Below, one piece after another: positions 473 through 7,190 of a stretch of DNA of 54,106 nt. Each line of letters opens with the position of its first letter. Positions within the stretch are counted from its first letter, which is position 1. The DNA is taken from positions 1 to 54,106 of the forward strand of contig PLMK01000023.1 in assembly GCA_003142475.1 (NCBI GenBank). Direction: 5' to 3'. Made by a program: the position numbers and the translations under genes. The stretch comes from Ignavibacteriota bacterium (GTDB lineage Bacteria > Bacteroidota > Ignavibacteria > UBA10030). Under the pieces are notes generated by a model. It was given only the letters and a program-made list of their open reading frames with translations, did not search any database and had not been told where the DNA came from.

Positions 473-2149
473 ATGACATCCCGTCAATTCAAATACTGTT
501 CGGTAATTCTGTTATTTCTTGCTGCGTCAAGTTGGATCAGAGCGCAAGTGATACACTCTTCCCACCAGTTAAGTGCTGATCAATTGCTTCAGTACTATCG
601 TTCGCTGAAAAATTTATCACAGATGGAAGCGCTTTCAAATGATCTTCACGACAGGAAATGTGGTTTTGGGATTAGAACGCAGGTTCATAGTCAGTGGAAT
701 GCTTTTTCTGTTCTGCAAAAAATCGAACTTAAGCAGTTAATGGCTGATGATTCCATGCAAAAGAACCGAATAATTGGTCGTTTCAAAATTCTGTATGACA
801 CTTCTGGAACTTCAAATGTACCTGCTTTATTAGATGTGAACAACCAACCAATACCCAATACTGCTGAGGCGTATGTGGATTCTGTTGGAGCTATATTTAA
901 TTATATTTATTCGGTTGAAATTGACGGACTTGGATATCAAGCACCGCCGCATGAGCAGGGCGAATCGTCCTATCGAATATATATCAAAGACCAAGGCAAA
1001 GATGGCTATGGACTTACTGATTGGGATTCTGATGCGCCGAATCTTAACCCGAACGGAAACCCTCCGCGATACGCGTGCTATGTAGAGGTTGATAACGATT
1101 TTAAGGATCAATATACAAAAGGAATCAATGCTCTTAAGGTAACGGCAGCACATGAGTTTCATCATGTTATTCAGGTGGGATCCTACGGTTATTGGGACGA
1201 GGACATTTTTGTGCATGAACTCACTTCTACATGGATGGAGGATGTTGTTTACACCGAGGTGAACGATTACTATCAATATCTTCCAAATTATTTCAATCTA
1301 TTTTCTGCCGGAATTTCGTTTAACTATTATATTCCATCGGATGATCATTATGGTGGCTATGAACGCTGTATTTTTGCGCATTGTCTCGCAAGAATATACG
1401 GCGTAGATATTATGAAAGATATATGGACTGGAATGCGGACCCTTCCGTTTCTAGAAAGTGCTGATGCTGTACTCGCGAACCGTGGATCTAGTTTGCAATA
1501 TGCATTTGCAGAGTTCACAAAGTGGAATTATTTTACCTGGGATCGTGCTGATACAGTGAATTATTATCCTGAAGGGAATCATTACCCACGTTTTCAGCCT
1601 CTTCAGAAGACAACTTTTTGCAATACAACAAGCGGTAACGTTGAACCGCTGTCATCGTCGATGTACGAGTTTGATTTACAACAAGATACTATTACCGCAA
1701 TAATTGCGAATTTGGATGTGAGCAGTGCGATCAATAGAAGTACGACACAGCAACAGATTGATGTTACTCTATCTTCTGGGCTGCAAACCAAAATTTCTGC
1801 CGAGAATCTATCTCTTTGGAGCTCGTTTTTTATACAATCTTCAACTCGGAAAGATATTCCGCGCATGCAATCAAATGCGGCGCCCAATCCTTTCCGGCTT
1901 GCAGATGCAAAATGGTTGAAACTTCCGATCAATCAAGATGCAGCAAAAACGGCTGAAGTATTTTTCTTTACTTCATCGTTCCAACTTGCTTATTCGGGAT
2001 CTCTCGGTGTGAATAGTGAAGACGGAGGATTTAGAGCAATTGTGATTCCGACGTCAGAAGTCAAGTCAAAACTCGCATCAGGTATCTATTTCATAATCGC
2101 AAAAACAGCGAACAGTGACTACAAATGGAAAGTTGCAGTAATCCGATGA
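473..2149 (+). CDS. secreted HExxH metalloprotease-like protein with type IX secretion-like tail
   Basis: The 558-residue protein starts with a signal peptide: basic N-terminus, then a hydrophobic stretch around residues 9-24 ending AQV. A zinc-binding HEFHH motif lies at residues 227-231. Acidic residues follow in FVHELTSTWMED (about 247-258), where a third zinc ligand could lie. This arrangement resembles the MXAN_6640-type putative metalloproteases, a family I recognise only by pattern. The last ~95 residues begin with an APNPF motif and end with SGIYFI...KVAVIR, the form of a type IX secretion (Por) sorting domain, so outer-membrane export is inferred. Its stop codon overlaps the ccmA start by four bases, an odd coupling for an exported protease. 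Activity and substrate are unknown. Confidence 0.75.
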   Translation: MTSRQFKYCSVILLFLAASSWIRAQVIHSSHQLSADQLLQYYRSLKNLSQMEALSNDLHDRKCGFGIRTQVHSQWNAFSVLQKIELKQLMADDSMQKNRIIGRFKILYDTSGTSNVPALLDVNNQPIPNTAEAYVDSVGAIFNYIYSVEIDGLGYQAPPHEQGESSYRIYIKDQGKDGYGLTDWDSDAPNLNPNGNPPRYACYVEVDNDFKDQYTKGINALKVTAAHEFHHVIQVGSYGYWDEDIFVHELTSTWMEDVVYTEVNDYYQYLPNYFNLFSAGISFNYYIPSDDHYGGYERCIFAHCLARIYGVDIMKDIWTGMRTLPFLESADAVLANRGSSLQYAFAEFTKWNYFTWDRADTVNYYPEGNHYPRFQPLQKTTFCNTTSGNVEPLSSSMYEFDLQQDTITAIIANLDVSSAINRSTTQQQIDVTLSSGLQTKISAENLSLWSSFFIQSSTRKDIPRMQSNAAPNPFRLADAKWLKLPINQDAAKTAEVFFFTSSFQLAYSGSLGVNSEDGGFRAIVIPTSEVKSKLASGIYFIIAKTANSDYKWKVAVIR

Positions 2150-2775
2150 ATTCGATTTCCATTACGGCAAATGGACTATCGAAAGATTACAACCATAGTT
2201 CAATCTTTAAAGATATTTCGTTCTCTTTGTCTTCGCCGGCATCGCTATCAATTACTGGAAAGAATGGCGCAGGGAAATCAACACTTTCGAAAATTATTGC
2301 AGGTTTGTTGAGTTTAACACGCGGATCCATTACCTATTCGGTAAATGGGAAGCAAATTGGAATTGAGGAATTCAAGCATCACATCGGCTTTGTTTCGCCA
2401 TATTTGAATTTGTACGACGAGTTCACAGCATTAGAAAATCTTCAATTCCTTTCCCACATTCGATCAACAACTCAACAGAATAGTAAAAGAATAAAGGAAA
2501 TGCTTACACTTGTCGGATTGTGGAATCGTAAAGATGATATTGTTGGCACATTTTCTTCTGGGATGAAACAACGATTAAAATATGCCTTTGCTCTTCTGCA
2601 CAATCCAGCGGTTTTGATTCTTGATGAGCCAACCAGCAACCTTGATATAGAAGGCATCGATGTTATATGGCAAATCATTTTGGAACAAAAGAAATCGAAT
2701 ATTCTGATTATCGCAACGAATAACAATGAGGAAGCTCATTGGTGTGCACAACAAATTCAAGTTGGAACAACTTAG
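2146..2775 (+). CDS. ccmA: heme exporter ATP-binding protein CcmA
   Basis: This is the ATPase subunit of the CcmAB transporter of cytochrome c maturation system I. It powers release of heme-loaded CcmE from CcmC on the outer face of the inner membrane. The 209-residue protein has a Walker A motif GKNGAGKST near residues 38-46, an ABC signature FSSGMKQR near 136-143, and a Walker B motif LILDEP near 155-161 followed by the D-loop SNLD. I chose the ATG at 2146, which overlaps the upstream stop as ATGA; an ATG at 2125 would add seven residues inside the upstream gene. ccmB follows after 34 bases. Identity as CcmA rather than another small ABC ATPase rests mainly on the ccmB, ccmC and ccmE neighbours. 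Confidence 0.88.
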   Translation: MNSISITANGLSKDYNHSSIFKDISFSLSSPASLSITGKNGAGKSTLSKIIAGLLSLTRGSITYSVNGKQIGIEEFKHHIGFVSPYLNLYDEFTALENLQFLSHIRSTTQQNSKRIKEMLTLVGLWNRKDDIVGTFSSGMKQRLKYAFALLHNPAVLILDEPTSNLDIEGIDVIWQIILEQKKSNILIIATNNNEEAHWCAQQIQVGTT

Positions 2776-2809
2776 CAGCAGTTGATTTTTTAACATTTAT
2801 AAAAGAACT

Positions 2810-3481
2810 GTGAACATCATTACAAGCACATTGGCGATTGTTTCGAAAGATGTTCGTTCAGAGCTGCGAACACGTTATGCTATGAACGCGCTCCTGATGT
2901 TCGTTGTTACCTCGGTGGCAACAATTTTGTTTGCTCTTCGAGAAGATGAAGTAAGCACAGAAGTTCTCTCCGGAATGTTCTGGGTGGTTGTTTTCTTTAC
3001 AGCGATGTCGGGACTTTCTCGAATATTCGTCAGCGAAGAAGAACGCGGAACGACAATGACACTTCAGCTTATTGCTTCGCCCTCTATAGTCTATTTCGGG
3101 AAATTGATATTCAACTGCGGTTTGACGCTTGTACTTTCTTCAGCGGTAACTATTTTATATATAGCAGTTTTTCCAGCGTTTGTGATCAAGTCAATGGGTA
3201 TCTTTATACTGACAATCTTTCTAGGAAGTCTTGGATTCGCAGCCGCTGCAACCATTATTGCGGCTATCATTGCCAAGGCGAATACAAAAGGAACTTTGTA
3301 TCCGGTGCTTTCGTTTCCAATTCTGATTCCGTTGCTCATGACAGTGATGAAATCAACTGCCCGCGCTTTGGATGGCGAGATGTTCATTGCGGCGATGAGC
3401 GAATTCCAGATTCTTGTTTCATATTTAATGATCATGATTGCCGGCTCGTATCTTTTATTCGATTATGTGTGGAAGGAATAA
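2810..3481 (+). CDS. ccmB: heme exporter membrane subunit CcmB
   Basis: This 223-residue membrane protein is the permease partner of CcmA. The start is GTG. It has about six hydrophobic segments: near residues 25-42, 54-70, 95-118, 123-150, 160-183 and 197-218. The N-terminal LAIVSKDVRSELRTRYA and the SEEERGTT loop at about residues 72-79 fit the CcmB family. The length matches the usual ~220 residues. It sits between ccmA and ccmC, and its last codons overlap the Shine-Dalgarno region of ccmC, so translation of the two is probably coupled. Known role: CcmAB uses ATP to free holo-CcmE from CcmC. Confidence 0.9.
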   Translation: MNIITSTLAIVSKDVRSELRTRYAMNALLMFVVTSVATILFALREDEVSTEVLSGMFWVVVFFTAMSGLSRIFVSEEERGTTMTLQLIASPSIVYFGKLIFNCGLTLVLSSAVTILYIAVFPAFVIKSMGIFILTIFLGSLGFAAAATIIAAIIAKANTKGTLYPVLSFPILIPLLMTVMKSTARALDGEMFIAAMSEFQILVSYLMIMIAGSYLLFDYVWKE

Positions 3482-3483
3482 GC

Positions 3484-4188
3484 TTGAGGTTTATTAAATA
3501 CTCATCAATTGCGTTTATCACCTTCGTGATTCTTGCCGGTATTGCGATACCGATGGTACCGCAGCCGCAAAGCTGGCTGGAATTTCCGATCATTCCCGGG
3601 CTTGAAGAAAAAGCGCGAAATATTTTCTTTCATGTGCCAATTGCATGGGTGTCAGTGCTTGGATTTATATTCGCGCTCTATTATGGATTTCGATATCTGC
3701 GGACAAAGGATTTTGATTATGATATTAAATCTGTTTCTTCAGCAGGACTTGGAATGATGTTCTGCATCCTTGCGACGGTAACCGGTTCGATTTGGGCTAA
3801 GTTCAACTGGGGTTCCTTCTGGAATTGGGATCCACGTGAGACTTCTATCTTTATTCTTCTTCTCATTTATGGTGCATACTTTGCGCTTCGTTCAGCGCTC
3901 GGCCAAGAAGAAGTCCGCGCTCGTCTCTCAGCAGTCTATTCCATTCTTGCAGGATTGACAGCGCCATTCTTTATTTTCATCATGCCGCGCATCGTTGGCG
4001 GATTGCATCCAGGTGCAAAAGGTGATACAGCAGGTTCTACACCGATGGCACAGCTTCACATGCCGCCCAATATGCGCTTCGTGTTTTTGATCGGGATAAT
4101 TGGATTCAGTTTATTATTTGTGTGGCTTCTTAATATGCGCGTTCGTATTGCACGAATAGAATATCAAATTTCTAAAAAAGAGAATTGA
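3484..4188 (+). CDS. ccmC: heme handling protein CcmC
   Basis: CcmC loads heme onto CcmE. It belongs to the heme-handling-protein family marked by a tryptophan-rich WWD-type motif, here WGSFWNWDPRET at about residues 109-120. Conserved histidines that would hold heme occur in FFHVP (near residue 50) and in GGLHPGAKG, on either side of that motif. About six transmembrane segments are visible. Two starts are possible: GTG at 3469, which overlaps ccmB by 13 bases and lacks a ribosome site, or TTG at 3484, which sits six bases after a GGAAGGA site at 3471-3477. I prefer the TTG, giving 234 residues. Confusion with CcsA or CcmF is unlikely, given the short length and the ccmABE neighbours. Confidence 0.9.
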   Translation: MRFIKYSSIAFITFVILAGIAIPMVPQPQSWLEFPIIPGLEEKARNIFFHVPIAWVSVLGFIFALYYGFRYLRTKDFDYDIKSVSSAGLGMMFCILATVTGSIWAKFNWGSFWNWDPRETSIFILLLIYGAYFALRSALGQEEVRARLSAVYSILAGLTAPFFIFIMPRIVGGLHPGAKGDTAGSTPMAQLHMPPNMRFVFLIGIIGFSLLFVWLLNMRVRIARIEYQISKKEN

Positions 4189-4195
4189 GGAAGTT

Positions 4196-4333
4196 ATGTA
4201 CGAATTTTTAAATCAAAACCAAATGTACATCGTACTTGTTGTAACGATGCTGATCTGGTCCGGCATTATCTGGTATCTTGTGCGTATTGATAAAAAGATT
4301 GGACGGATCGAAAAGCGAATGAAGAAGGATTAA
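4196..4333 (+). CDS. CcmD-like small membrane protein
   Basis: This 45-codon frame starts with ATG at 4196, seven bases after the ccmC stop, behind a GAGGAAG ribosome site, and stops just before ccmE. The product has a short polar N-terminus (MYEFLNQNQ), one hydrophobic segment at about residues 11-29, and a strongly basic C-terminal tail rich in Arg, Lys and Glu. That is the size, topology and position of CcmD, the small protein that joins CcmABC and helps release holo-CcmE. CcmD sequences are poorly conserved, so the assignment rests on context and topology. The tight spacing on both sides argues that it is a real gene. Confidence 0.75.
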   Translation: MYEFLNQNQMYIVLVVTMLIWSGIIWYLVRIDKKIGRIEKRMKKD

Positions 4334-4337
4334 TGAG

Positions 4338-4727
4338 ATGAATGTAAAAGTAGTCGTCGGTGGTTTAATTATTGTTTTTGGTATTGTATTGGGAACGATA
4401 AATTTCCTTGATTCAAATGTCGAGTACGGCGATTTTGCTCAGGCGAAGAAAACACAAAAGAAAATTCAGGTTAAGGGCGAATGGGTGAAAAATCTGGAGA
4501 GTTCTTTTGATGCGGAAAAAATTCAATACACTTTTTACCTGAAGGACGACAGCGGTGAGATTCTCAAAGTTGTATTAGATGGCGCAAAACCAAATAACTT
4601 CGACCTTGCGACCAGTGTCGTTATCAAAGGGAAGTATATGAACAATCACTTCCATGCAACAGAAGTGCTGACTAAATGCCCATCGAAGTACGAAGGTAAG
4701 ACTGGTGTGATGAAAAAGCAATCTTGA
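4338..4727 (+). CDS. ccmE: cytochrome c maturation heme chaperone CcmE, cysteine type
   Basis: CcmE is the periplasmic heme chaperone of system I. The 129-residue protein has an N-terminal membrane anchor (about residues 4-24) and then an OB-fold beta domain (about 30-110). The classical heme-linking motif is HxxxY. Here the matching place, after the ATEVL strand, reads CPSKY, with cysteine 114 and tyrosine 118. Cysteine-type (CXXXY) CcmE proteins are known from some archaea and Desulfovibrio, in Ccm systems that lack CcmG and CcmH. In agreement, no ccmF, ccmG or ccmH follows here. The start codon lies four bases after the CcmD-like gene, so all five genes form one operon. A strong hairpin with a T-run lies just downstream. 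Confidence 0.92.
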   Translation: MNVKVVVGGLIIVFGIVLGTINFLDSNVEYGDFAQAKKTQKKIQVKGEWVKNLESSFDAEKIQYTFYLKDDSGEILKVVLDGAKPNNFDLATSVVIKGKYMNNHFHATEVLTKCPSKYEGKTGVMKKQS

Positions 4728-4739
4728 TGTTCGTTGTAG

Positions 4740-4763
4740 GGACGTGATTTATCACGTCCTTTT
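4740..4763 (+). terminator. intrinsic terminator after the ccm operon
   Basis: A perfect 9-base-pair stem (GGACGTGAT / ATCACGTCC) with a two-base TT centre is followed by TTTT, starting 12 bases after the ccmE stop. The T-run is short, so it could also be one of the palindromes of the repeat-like cluster that follows. Confidence 0.55.
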
Positions 4764-4782
4764 GAGCCTCCTCCTTCTACAC

Positions 4783-4806
4783 AGGGATTTGATGAATCAA
4801 ATCCCT
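4783..4806. repeat. perfect 11-bp inverted repeat
   Basis: AGGGATTTGAT and ATCAAATCCCT flank a GA centre. It is the second of several palindromes in this gap; the others are GGACGTGAT/ATCACGTCC at 4740-4759, CGTTCAGCTGAACG at 4816-4829 and AACCAATTTGGTT at 4944-4956. It has no T-run on the plus strand. It looks like a REP-type or MITE-like palindromic unit, but copies elsewhere in the genome cannot be checked here. Confidence 0.5.
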
Positions 4807-5022
4807 ACTTATCCTCGTTCAGCTGAACGTTTCTACATTCCTGCCTCGTAAAATCTCCAATACCTGAAGTAACAAATCGATCCGTGATTTCTACGAAAGC
4901 GAAGCTGGTACATAACTTCGATAATAAAGCATTACGTATATCCAACCAATTTGGTTACATGGACGAACTAAGGCGCGCTGAATTGGTATGAATCTATTCC
5001 GAATTTTTATTTCAAATCAAAC

Positions 5023-5088
5023 TTACCCGCTATTCACGATAAAATTGAACGGATTGTTGATAGCAGAAGGCGGAGCGTATGGTTTAGA
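5023..5088 (-). pseudogene. 3' relic of a second bshB1-like gene
   Basis: Read on the minus strand, bases 5061-5023 give INNPFNFIVNSG followed by TAA. The intact bshB1 at 6462-7190 ends IDNPFNFIVNRG followed by TAA, so 10 of the last 12 residues agree. The reading can be followed upstream to about 5088 (SKPYAPPSA), with weaker likeness to the KYGEPF region of BshB1. The differences in the matching part are mostly third-position changes, so this is not a fresh copy of the neighbour. It is more likely the tail of an older or foreign bshB1. It lies in the same frame as, and directly after, the stop of the 5095-5835 gene. No start or catalytic part remains. Confidence 0.65.
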
Positions 5089-5094
5089 AAAAAA

Positions 5095-5835
5095 TTACTT
5101 CTTCTCGTAAATAATCGGGTCGTTCGTTTTCACTTTCTCAGATTCAAATATATACTTTCCATTTTCAGCGATAATGAGTTGTATCGATCCAAAGTTAGAA
5201 ATTTTTTGAACTTTGCAGGACTTTATAAAATCACCCCAGAATGCTCTGCAGAGATTGCCTTGGTCGCCGCTGATATCACCCTTGATCTCCTTTCCACCCT
5301 TCATATATACACAAGTTCCGATGAATGACACCGGCTTTGGAGCCGTAAGTCCCATAACAGTCACACTAAGTGACTTTTCTTTTGTTGCCGGCTCATAGAC
5401 TCTTTCTTCAACGGTGCCGGCTAAGTAGAAGGCGTTATTCTTCTTGCCATAGGGAATCTGCGGTTCCATCGAGTTTCTTCCTTGTGCAAGCTTCACACTA
5501 ATGTAACCACTGATATCAACATTGGGATGGTACCGAACACCATTAACCATGTTTTCAGATTCGAAATCCACCGGTAAAGAGGTCAGCTTTATATCCTTAA
5601 CTTCCATTTGGAATATCGGATCGAAAATACCTTGCAGCTGTAACTTCATTTCATTGGTTACATCCTGCCAGTTAACCAGCTTCATTACGGCCTCTTTGTC
5701 TTTTGCTTTGACGGCTTCTTTAAATTGTTTTAATAAATCTTCAGCACTCTTAGGAGCACCAATTGTTTGAGAATAAAGTGGCTGTGAAAGAACAATGGAT
5801 ATCGCCACAAATAGCACCACCTGTAAGTATCTCAT
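5095..5835 (-). CDS. exported protein of unknown function
   Basis: I do not recognise this 246-residue protein. It begins with a clear signal peptide (hydrophobic residues about 5-20, cleavage likely after LYSQ). The next part, about residues 30-65, is a charged helical stretch rich in Lys, Glu and Ala (AEDLLKQFKEAVKAKDKEAVMKLV). The rest is mainly beta-like. Two cysteines (in IGTCVY and NLCRAFW) could pair. An AAGGA ribosome site lies about ten bases before the ATG. It sits 63 bases downstream of a lipoprotein gene on the same strand, so the two may be co-transcribed. The helical start resembles the nuclear-transport-factor-like folds that often occur in exported proteins, but this is a guess. 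Confidence 0.65.
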   Translation of the reverse strand: MRYLQVVLFVAISIVLSQPLYSQTIGAPKSAEDLLKQFKEAVKAKDKEAVMKLVNWQDVTNEMKLQLQGIFDPIFQMEVKDIKLTSLPVDFESENMVNGVRYHPNVDISGYISVKLAQGRNSMEPQIPYGKKNNAFYLAGTVEERVYEPATKEKSLSVTVMGLTAPKPVSFIGTCVYMKGGKEIKGDISGDQGNLCRAFWGDFIKSCKVQKISNFGSIQLIIAENGKYIFESEKVKTNDPIIYEKK

Positions 5836-5898
5836 TTATTTTATTTCCTTTGATGAAAATAGTACCAGACAACATCTCATTCAGATTGTCGAGAAAAA

Positions 5899-6411
5899 TT
5901 ATTCCTGCTTAAATGTAACGTTCTCAAAAGAGCCTTTTAAAATTACAACACTCGGTCCCGCCGGTTTTTGGACAGCTCGAAATTCAAATGTTCCTGATAC
6001 TTTTTTATCTTCTTCATTAAATGATGTAATAATAACAGTTCCAGTATTATCCCTGTTTGTAGTATGGAATATTGAATTTGCCCCTGTATATGGATCTCCG
6101 GTGACCGTATACCATGCCACATTTCCACCTTTAGAATGTTCATGATTATTGTAAGTGAATGTTCCCTCATTGCAGGGATAAGTTCCTGGTCCTTTTGTAA
6201 ATATAAAAATTGAAAGATGAGCTAAGTATGGGTCTGCCCGGCCTGCACTTATAGTTAATACATATCCATCATATTCTGCCTCAAAGTGAGAAATTTCGGC
6301 CGCCACTCCGTTGACCTCAAAGATAAAGCTGGCCTGCTTGCTTGTACATCCAGCGAAAGTGAGTGCGAAGATACATATTACTGTCTTGCAAATGTGAGAA
6401 TACGTTTTCAT
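5899..6411 (-). CDS. lipoprotein of unknown function, DUF6252-like
   Basis: This 170-residue protein has a lipoprotein signal: a hydrophobic stretch at about residues 8-20 followed by a lipobox ending FAGC, so cysteine 22 would carry the lipid. The mature part is predicted beta-rich, with the closing pattern KVSGTFEFRA followed by ...LKGSFENV. That pattern resembles a family of Bacteroidota lipoproteins (DUF6252-like) that I recognise only by style. A strong AGGAGG ribosome site lies six bases before the start, on the complement of 6418-6423. It lies between bshB1 (upstream on the same strand) and the 5095 gene. Role unknown; an outer-membrane or periplasmic location is inferred. Confidence 0.7.
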   Translation of the reverse strand: MKTYSHICKTVICIFALTFAGCTSKQASFIFEVNGVAAEISHFEAEYDGYVLTISAGRADPYLAHLSIFIFTKGPGTYPCNEGTFTYNNHEHSKGGNVAWYTVTGDPYTGANSIFHTTNRDNTGTVIITSFNEEDKKVSGTFEFRAVQKPAGPSVVILKGSFENVTFKQE

Positions 6412-6461
6412 GTCACGCCTCCTATGTTAATGAACATCATCGGTTGTTTGATAGAAGGGAA

Positions 6462-7190
6462 TTAGCCTCTGTTCACAATAAAGTTGAATGGATTATCAAT
6501 CCCCAGTGACCATTTTGAAATGAACGGTTCGCCATATTTTACGCCGATTTTTGAACCGAAATATCGACATCGGGTTCCGATCACTTCTAAAAAATCAGGC
6601 CTGCTCAACTTTGTCTCGCTTTCTTTGCTTTCCGGATTGAAAAATTGCGAGGCATGGGCGCGCACGGACTTCATTTTCAAATCGAATGAGTCACTAATGT
6701 CAACAATAAATGCCGGTTCGAATTCCATCCATTGCATGAACTCAAAGTAGTGGTGTGGGCGGTGGCGTTCTTGTACTTTGCCACTGAGTTTTGTTTTCAT
6801 CTTTTCCAAGCCGCTATAGTACCATGCTTCACGGCAAAGTTCGCTTGTGTGCACGTGATCTGGATGTCGCTCAACACCATAAGGAATGATAAGAAGAGCA
6901 GGGCGAAGCTCTCGAATGAGAGTGATAATCTTTAAAAGATTTTTTTTGTTTACTTCAACATTTCCATCAGGGATTTGCAGATTCCGTCGTGTTACGGCTC
7001 CAAGAATTTTTGCTGCCTGCTGTGCTTCTTCTCTTCTAATCTCTTTCGTGCCGCGTGTACCAAGCTCGCCTTGTGTCAGATCGCAGAGAGCAACCTTATA
7101 TCGTTGCTGAACTAATTTAGCGACTGTTCCGCCGCAAGCAAGTTCAATATCGTCCGGATGTGCGCCAATTGCTAAAATGTCTACGTTCAT
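6462..7190 (-). CDS. bshB1: bacillithiol biosynthesis deacetylase BshB1
   Basis: This zinc-dependent LmbE/PIG-L deacetylase removes the acetyl group from GlcNAc-malate in the second step of bacillithiol synthesis, in the cytoplasm. The 242 residues hold the zinc motif AHPDD (residues 10-14), the conserved TQGELGTRG segment (about 39-47), and a second histidine motif HPDHVHTS near residue 113. Length and motifs match BshB1 rather than generic LmbE proteins. A GAGGAA ribosome site lies six bases before the ATG. The gene is divergent from xseA. bshA and bshC are not in the window. A remnant of a related gene tail lies 1.4 kb away at 5023-5088. Confidence 0.9.
   Translation of the reverse strand: MNVDILAIGAHPDDIELACGGTVAKLVQQRYKVALCDLTQGELGTRGTKEIRREEAQQAAKILGAVTRRNLQIPDGNVEVNKKNLLKIITLIRELRPALLIIPYGVERHPDHVHTSELCREAWYYSGLEKMKTKLSGKVQERHRPHHYFEFMQWMEFEPAFIVDISDSFDLKMKSVRAHASQFFNPESKESETKLSRPDFLEVIGTRCRYFGSKIGVKYGEPFISKWSLGIDNPFNFIVNRG

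Follow-up and report, generated by a model that had tools for sequence, protein, structure and literature searches.

A cysteine-type cytochrome c maturation operon in an Ignavibacteriota genome and a remote CcmF paralogue that may complete it

The ccmABCDE operon and its cysteine-type CcmE

The stretch analyzed here (the window; 54,106 nucleotides) belongs to the draft genome of an Ignavibacteriota bacterium (3,583,110 bases, 81 contigs, 98.98% complete) and carries the cytochrome c maturation genes ccmA-ccmB-ccmC-ccmD(alt)-ccmE as one tight, end-to-end unit on the + strand (2125–4727; Table 1). This packing had been read from the letters of the sequence in a preliminary description, and both the coordinates and the Pfam matches agree with it. 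All five Pfam matches exceed the curated cut-offs, the family matched by CcmC being Cytochrom_C_asm (PF01578). The matches of CcmA, CcmB, CcmC, and CcmE to the NCBIfam models stay under the cut-offs of these models, and the four proteins are therefore divergent. A Walker A motif (GKNGAGKST), a signature (SSGMKQ), and a Walker B motif (LILDEP) were read in the CcmA translation.

The C-terminal end of CcmE is LTKCPSKYEGKTGVMKKQS, in which C114 and Y118 occupy the positions of H130 and Y134 of the E. coli protein. CPSKY in place of the heme-linking HxxxY had been taken as the mark of the variant System I, and the relatives bear this out: among 60 CcmE loci, 58 have CPSKY, one CPSRY, and one CGSRY, so that Cys occurs in all of them and HxxxY in none. 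These loci were found with the general Pfam profile, not a Cys-specific one, and consist of 30 from the family (the present one included) and the 30 best-scoring ones of a class search, which is not a random draw. The peptide LTKCPSKY did not vary among the relatives aligned (24 of 24). It was also found in 40 of 40 members of a second set, partly seeded on that peptide, and the count for the loci of 80 named relatives (79 CPSKY, one CPSRY) is likewise partly circular, the scan having been seeded on LTKCPSKY. When a profile of the 24 relatives was used, the Desulfovibrio vulgaris CcmE structure 2KCT came first (1e-7), followed by E. coli 8CE8_E, 1SR3, and 1J6Q, and C114 aligns with the Cys of 2KCT. 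The AlphaFold2 model of CcmE (predicted local distance difference test, pLDDT, 87.5) has one N-terminal helix (3–26) and a beta domain, and matches 1–4 and 6 obtained with it in Foldseek were CcmE structures.

CcmE is present in 30 of the 32 family genomes and in 367 of the 391 genomes of the class Ignavibacteria. The locus is thus a member of the published System I* (the cysteine-CcmE variant), and System I* is the rule in this class, with Cys in 60/60 CcmE loci read. The setting, which had been considered worth recording, is accordingly less exceptional than first thought, the system being normal for Ignavibacteria. At the profile level, no second CcmE was found in this 98.98% complete draft; with a single CcmE and no CcmH recovered, neither a histidine-type second ccmE nor a ccmFGH set beside one turned up in the genome. 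Two class genomes, G309 and G364, also hold a second CcmE: there, a different, better-scoring Cys-type CcmE lies beside a distant ccmF (L035, G309:C44; L036/L078, G364:C331), which may reflect a second system, transfer, or contamination.

The closest named relatives are the Ignavibacteriae metagenome-assembled genomes fen_1299, fen_1287, and metabat2.334 (78–82% CcmE identity), and those next in line carry the names Ignavibacteria or Bacteroidetes. The idea that the operon is of recent foreign origin was rejected on the basis of gene content and gene order, which match those of class relatives.

The unit had also been described as ending after ccmE with a hairpin. The hairpin is real, since no comparable sequence occurred in 100 shuffles; it is, however, the left arm of a 73-base palindrome of the form GTAGGG...CCCTAC. 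Palindromes of this form with differing cores lie right behind ccmE in genus relatives (L032:1789–1856 and L079:6400–6467), and the hairpin therefore need not be a terminator. A plain terminator was rejected as its explanation: the hairpin is half of a palindromic element, and it is missing from the output of the terminator scan. On the 5′ side, the operon is preceded by a gene for an MXAN_6640-type metalloprotease (473–2149), and on the 3′ side it is followed by two open reading frames (ORFs) on the − strand, a gene for a bshB1-like deacetylase (6462–7190, −), and xseA, the last two assigned by eye.

Table 1 Features of the ccm locus and of the remote cluster that contains ccmF-B
Feature	Position	Strand	Evidence or remark
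ccmA, heme-exporter ATPase	2125..2775 (alternative ATG 2146, the start in the preliminary description)	+	ABC_tran 1.6e-28; TIGR01189 114.8 bits, cut-off 131.6
ccmB, membrane subunit, GTG start	2810..3481	+	PF03379 CcmB 1.9e-16
ccmC, heme handling, WWD-type block GSFWNWDPRETS	3469..4188	+	PF01578 1.7e-24; TIGR01191 1.8e-28, under its cut-off
ccmD-like gene, 45 amino acids	4196..4333	+	PF20077 CcmD_alt 3.7e-07 and TIGR04391 2.1e-06, both over cut-off
ccmE, cysteine type, 129 amino acids, LTKCPSKY (C114, Y118)	4338..4727	+	PF03100 1.4e-14
Codons of C114–Y118, heme-linking motif	4677..4691	+	sequence; Cys in 60/60 loci
73-base palindromic element 3′ of ccmE	4736..4808		left arm is the hairpin of the preliminary description (4736–4759)
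Stretch between ccmE and the bshB1-like gene; site of ccmF-A in relatives	4809..6461		gene order in L105 versus the window, L070, and L264
Conserved multiheme cytochrome/barrel cluster ending in ccmF-B	L005:7198-16808 (G000 contig C39)

CcmF paralogues and other assembly factors elsewhere in the genome

Inspection by eye of the ORFs listed for the window revealed no ccmF, ccmG, or ccmH, and neither PF01578 (beyond CcmC) nor PF03918 gave an additional match there. The preliminary description had left it undecided whether ccmF and the apocytochrome-reducing genes lie elsewhere or are absent. For ccmF, the former is the case. A PF01578 search of the whole genome retrieved three proteins: CcmC of the window, CcmF on contig C39, and a HemX-like protein on contig C4. 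The CcmF (749 amino acids; L005:7198–9447, − strand) matches both Cytochrom_C_asm and CcmF_C and keeps the WWD block and all four heme histidines, that is, both P-His and both TM-His; an absence of CcmF is thereby ruled out. At the profile level, neither CcmH (PF03918) nor ResB (PF05140) was found in the genome. System II (CcsBA/ResBC) was rejected as a replacement, since ResB is missing and the sole CcsA-like protein is the HemX-like one, which adjoins hemA (named by eye). A classical System I of the E. coli type was also rejected, its CcmE being of the HxxxY type and CcmH being part of it.

PF03918 matches occur in four of the 32 family genomes; these were rejected as CcmH, being zinc-ribbon or CxCGxCG proteins whose genes adjoin efflux-type or unrelated ones and are not ccm-linked. 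In the class, nine of 149 genomes gave such matches, of which one (G011) was inspected. In some family genomes, zinc-ribbon membrane proteins carry FxCxCGxCG segments that resemble those of CcmH (L066:1171–2142, L067:1114–2007, and L068:1129–2094).

As to the reducing genes, PF02683 revealed one DsbD, on contig C60. It forms part of a 767-amino-acid frame (L069:364–2667) that comprises an N-terminal TlpA/AhpC-TSA domain, DsbD_N, DsbD_TM, and a C-terminal thioredoxin domain, so that a CcmG-like TlpA is joined to DsbD. In G008, G017, G014, G030, and G002, the tlpA-like and dsbD parts are adjacent and separated by a stop or a coordinate gap; the single frame is either a fusion or the result of a stop lost in the draft. 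This TlpA-DsbD is likely a CcmG/CcdA-like reducing arm.

In 67 of the loci from the 80 named relatives, the ccmE stretch contains a ccmF match on the same strand (13 are without one, some stretches being short). Two kinds of CcmF exist in the family, namely, the operon-linked CcmF-A and CcmF-B, which is encoded at another locus and includes the copy on C39. Most family genomes carry both. CcmF-B was found in 26 of the 32 genomes, and a working CcmF-A was not found in eight, which have CcmF-B only: the six of the genus studied (g1), G003, and G017. The A–B identity is 35–43% over aligned columns, and the median identities are 0.53 (B–B), 0.63 (A–A), and 0.39 (A–B). FastTree parts the two kinds (support of 0.979 for B, with 26 rows, and 0.93–0.999 for A), and in an unrooted IQ-TREE tree of 68 rows, in which the outgroup rows and L197 were left out, the A|B split received 100/100 (SH-aLRT/UFBoot). 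In the IQ-TREE tree with an outgroup, the genus g1, G003, and G017/G018 cluster inside CcmF-B at 98.9/100. The short fragment L077 was dropped from the FastTree tree, in which rows L194–L196, labeled as separate, are operon copies as judged by their coordinates; 10 of 80 rows (two under 600 amino acids and eight duplicates) were dropped before the IQ-TREE trees, and L078 and L197 additionally for the unrooted one. The excluded L197 (G020:C22:179898–182111) is the single CcmF of G020; it lies outside both clades and is not ccmE-linked, and the CcmE of G020, too, ranks with the most divergent ones in the family set.

CcmF-B has a conserved neighborhood. On C39, the order is a NapC-type gene (six CXXCH and CGTMCH), a c554-like gene (four sites), a 432-amino-acid gene, a 14-heme protein, two 5-heme lipoprotein-like cytochromes, and ccmF-B; there are 34 CXXCH sites in five adjacent genes, and the 432-amino-acid gene has no heme sites and looks by eye, without a family search, like an outer-membrane barrel. 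This order recurs wholly or partly in relatives. In all 19 CcmF-B loci inspected (of 26), multiheme genes adjoin CcmF-B, G007 having only one 4-heme gene there, and in 18 of the 19, the exception again being G007, the lipoprotein-like cytochromes contain CX4CH sites (C.NT[FY]CH, C..[ST]GCH, and similar). The barrel gene occurs in 25 of the 32 genomes: 23 of the 26 with CcmF-B vs. two of the six without it (Fisher p = 0.012, uncorrected for kinship). Heme-biosynthesis-like genes were seen by eye beside the cluster in G004 and G017.

Proposed route and competing readings

We hold it to be highly probable that the operon encodes the export/chaperone half of System I* and that CcmF-B completes it, the operon ccmF-A having been lost and CcmF-B kept, without CcmH and with TlpA-DsbD as the reductant. 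On this proposal, CcmABCD would move heme across the inner membrane and load it on Cys114 of CcmE, with Tyr118 as the probable axial ligand, judging from the D. desulfuricans, Methanosarcina acetivorans, and E. coli homologues. Holo-CcmE would then pass the heme to CcmF-B, which would attach it to apocytochromes without CcmH, while the periplasmic TlpA-DsbD fusion would hold the CXXCH cysteines reduced. CcmF-B may suit the CX4CH sites of the neighboring cytochromes. As for its history, we incline, with moderate confidence, to the view that the cluster-linked CcmF-B was originally paired with a cytochrome/barrel cluster of the extracellular-electron-transfer type (lipoprotein-like cytochromes, CX4CH) and replaced the operon CcmF as the sole synthase in several family lineages, with a shared cysteine-type CcmE and no CcmH.

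Four points weigh against this proposal. First, no clear c-type cytochrome was found outside the cluster in 954,807 bases (26.6%) of the genome, where the single-CXXCH ORFs resemble, by eye, ribosomal L31, thymidine kinase, RadA, or spurious frames. Second, when the CcmF tree is rooted with an outgroup, both clades are weakly supported (17/65 for B and 84/64 for A). Third, the parts available of PMC3884852 report non-covalent ferric heme binding by D. vulgaris CcmE, and the covalent step is therefore not certain for every member. Fourth, CcmF-A or CcmH may possibly be encoded in the missing ~1% of the assembly, or a diverged CcmH/CcmI may lie under the detection level.

The alternative that survives best is that CcmF-B is a cluster-bound specialist like NrfE/SirE, serving the adjacent CX4CH/CXXCH cytochromes, and that ccmF-A was lost as hardly any other c-type cytochromes remain. 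The conserved cluster that ends in CcmF-B, the CX4CH sites in its cytochromes, the co-occurrence with the barrel gene, and the lack of other cytochromes in the sampled 955 kb speak for this reading, to which we give serious but tentative credence. However, G007 has no barrel gene, and yet CcmF-B is its only CcmF. Conversely, G001 and G016 have the barrel gene with CcmF-A only, which speaks against a strict need of the cluster for CcmF-B; CcmF-A can probably serve it as well. In these patterns, one CcmF seems able to replace the other over evolutionary time, and the link of CcmF-B to the cluster is not a strict one. Moreover, in G002, a genome with both CcmFs, cytochromes outside the cluster are few as well: 400,000 bases contained an 8-heme piece (L344:1–832) beside the cluster, a 1056-amino-acid ORF with two CXXCH, one single-CXXCH sensor-like ORF, a ferredoxin-like ORF, and several single-CXXCH frames taken as spurious. 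The contrast in cytochrome counts between the two genomes does not explain the loss of CcmF-A.

A second alternative is that CcmF-A is present and was left unassembled or unbinned, the split being an artefact of assembly. All genus genomes are indeed drafts of about 20 to 400 contigs. Nevertheless, CcmF-A is missing from all six of them, and the same bshB1-like gene follows ccmE without a contig break in the window, in G008, and in G003. In G017, a ccmF-A relic of ~90 codons with an in-frame stop lies directly behind ccmE in the middle of a contig. An artefact is therefore very unlikely, and we conclude that the operon stops after ccmE because the genus lost ccmF-A and kept only CcmF-B. In the window, a tblastn search with CcmF-A revealed no relic at 4809–6461; the best five of its 21 matches lie in, or start just before, ccmC. 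Finally, the idea that the operon no longer matures cytochromes and that CcmABC-E serves heme export or storage for some other purpose, which the operon without ccmF and the few cytochromes sampled outside one cluster might suggest, is scarcely credible given the intact CcmF and the heme sites adjacent to it in the same genome and the retention of both halves in all six genus genomes.

The cysteine-type CcmE poses a puzzle, since thioether bonds are stable and yet the heme must leave. In a whole class that seemingly relies on the cysteine-type CcmE alone, and for the most part does so without CcmH, many natural variants are at hand. Some genomes contain CcmF-A alone, some CcmF-B alone, and some both, with one CcmE in common, and they would make it possible to test which features of CcmF matter for heme release and for the acceptance of CXXCH and CX4CH. 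If the proposal is true, nature has swapped the last enzyme of System I*.

Comparison with known systems

In 2011, CPSKY was already the commonest motif of System I* (25 of 36 bacterial genomes), CcmH occurred in about one third, and delta-proteobacteria, Chloroflexi, and Firmicutes were the hosts named (PMC3601427, section 8); Ignavibacteria are not named in that section. Our search of the literature on Ignavibacteria, CcmE/CcmF, and cytochrome maturation, of partial coverage, revealed no description of System I* in Ignavibacteria or of a lineage with a cluster-linked CcmF as its sole CcmF, and no paper for the term CX4CH. The Melioribacter roseus CcmF (MROS_0623) is named in the available part of a proteome comparison (PMC5492636).

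Heme binding through the Cys of CcmE is described for D. desulfuricans and M. acetivorans (PMC3601427, section 8, and the available part of PMC9084895). According to the portions available of these two sources, the Desulfovibrio System I* (Goddard 2010; Allen 2006) shares with the present one CcmABCDE, a cysteine-type CcmE (CPSKY in the majority), CcmF, and a dispensable CcmH. Unlike there, the ccmF of the present genome is remote from ccmABCDE, and its product falls in a second clade of paralogues. The archaeal CcmABCEF of M. acetivorans, as far as presented in PMC9084895, likewise has a CXXXY CcmE, no CcmH/CcmI, and scattered genes; the archaea, however, are without CcmD, and the M. acetivorans CcmF is split, whereas CcmD_alt is present and CcmF is whole here.

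With regard to CcmF-B, the portion available of PMC9012536 describes a similar case in anaerobic methanotrophic archaea (ANME), in which CcmF2, a divergent paralogue beside MHC-B and thus near multiheme cytochromes, was proposed to be specialized. ANME retain other CcmF paralogues, whereas the cluster-linked copy is the sole one in a genus here. NrfE and SirE are CcmF homologues dedicated to cytochromes with atypical heme sites, as proposed for CcmF-B; they differ from it, in what is available of PMC6976685, in that they work with partners resembling CcmH, that SirE occurs alongside a general CcmF, and that their motifs are CXXCK or CX12NKGCH instead of CX4CH. The physical linkage to target cytochromes by which a dedicated CcmF is recognized was seen for CcmF-B in every locus inspected. 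Taken together, the finding proves correct, and most of it has an existing explanation: the system is of a known type, with an exchange of the last enzyme that is particular to the lineage.

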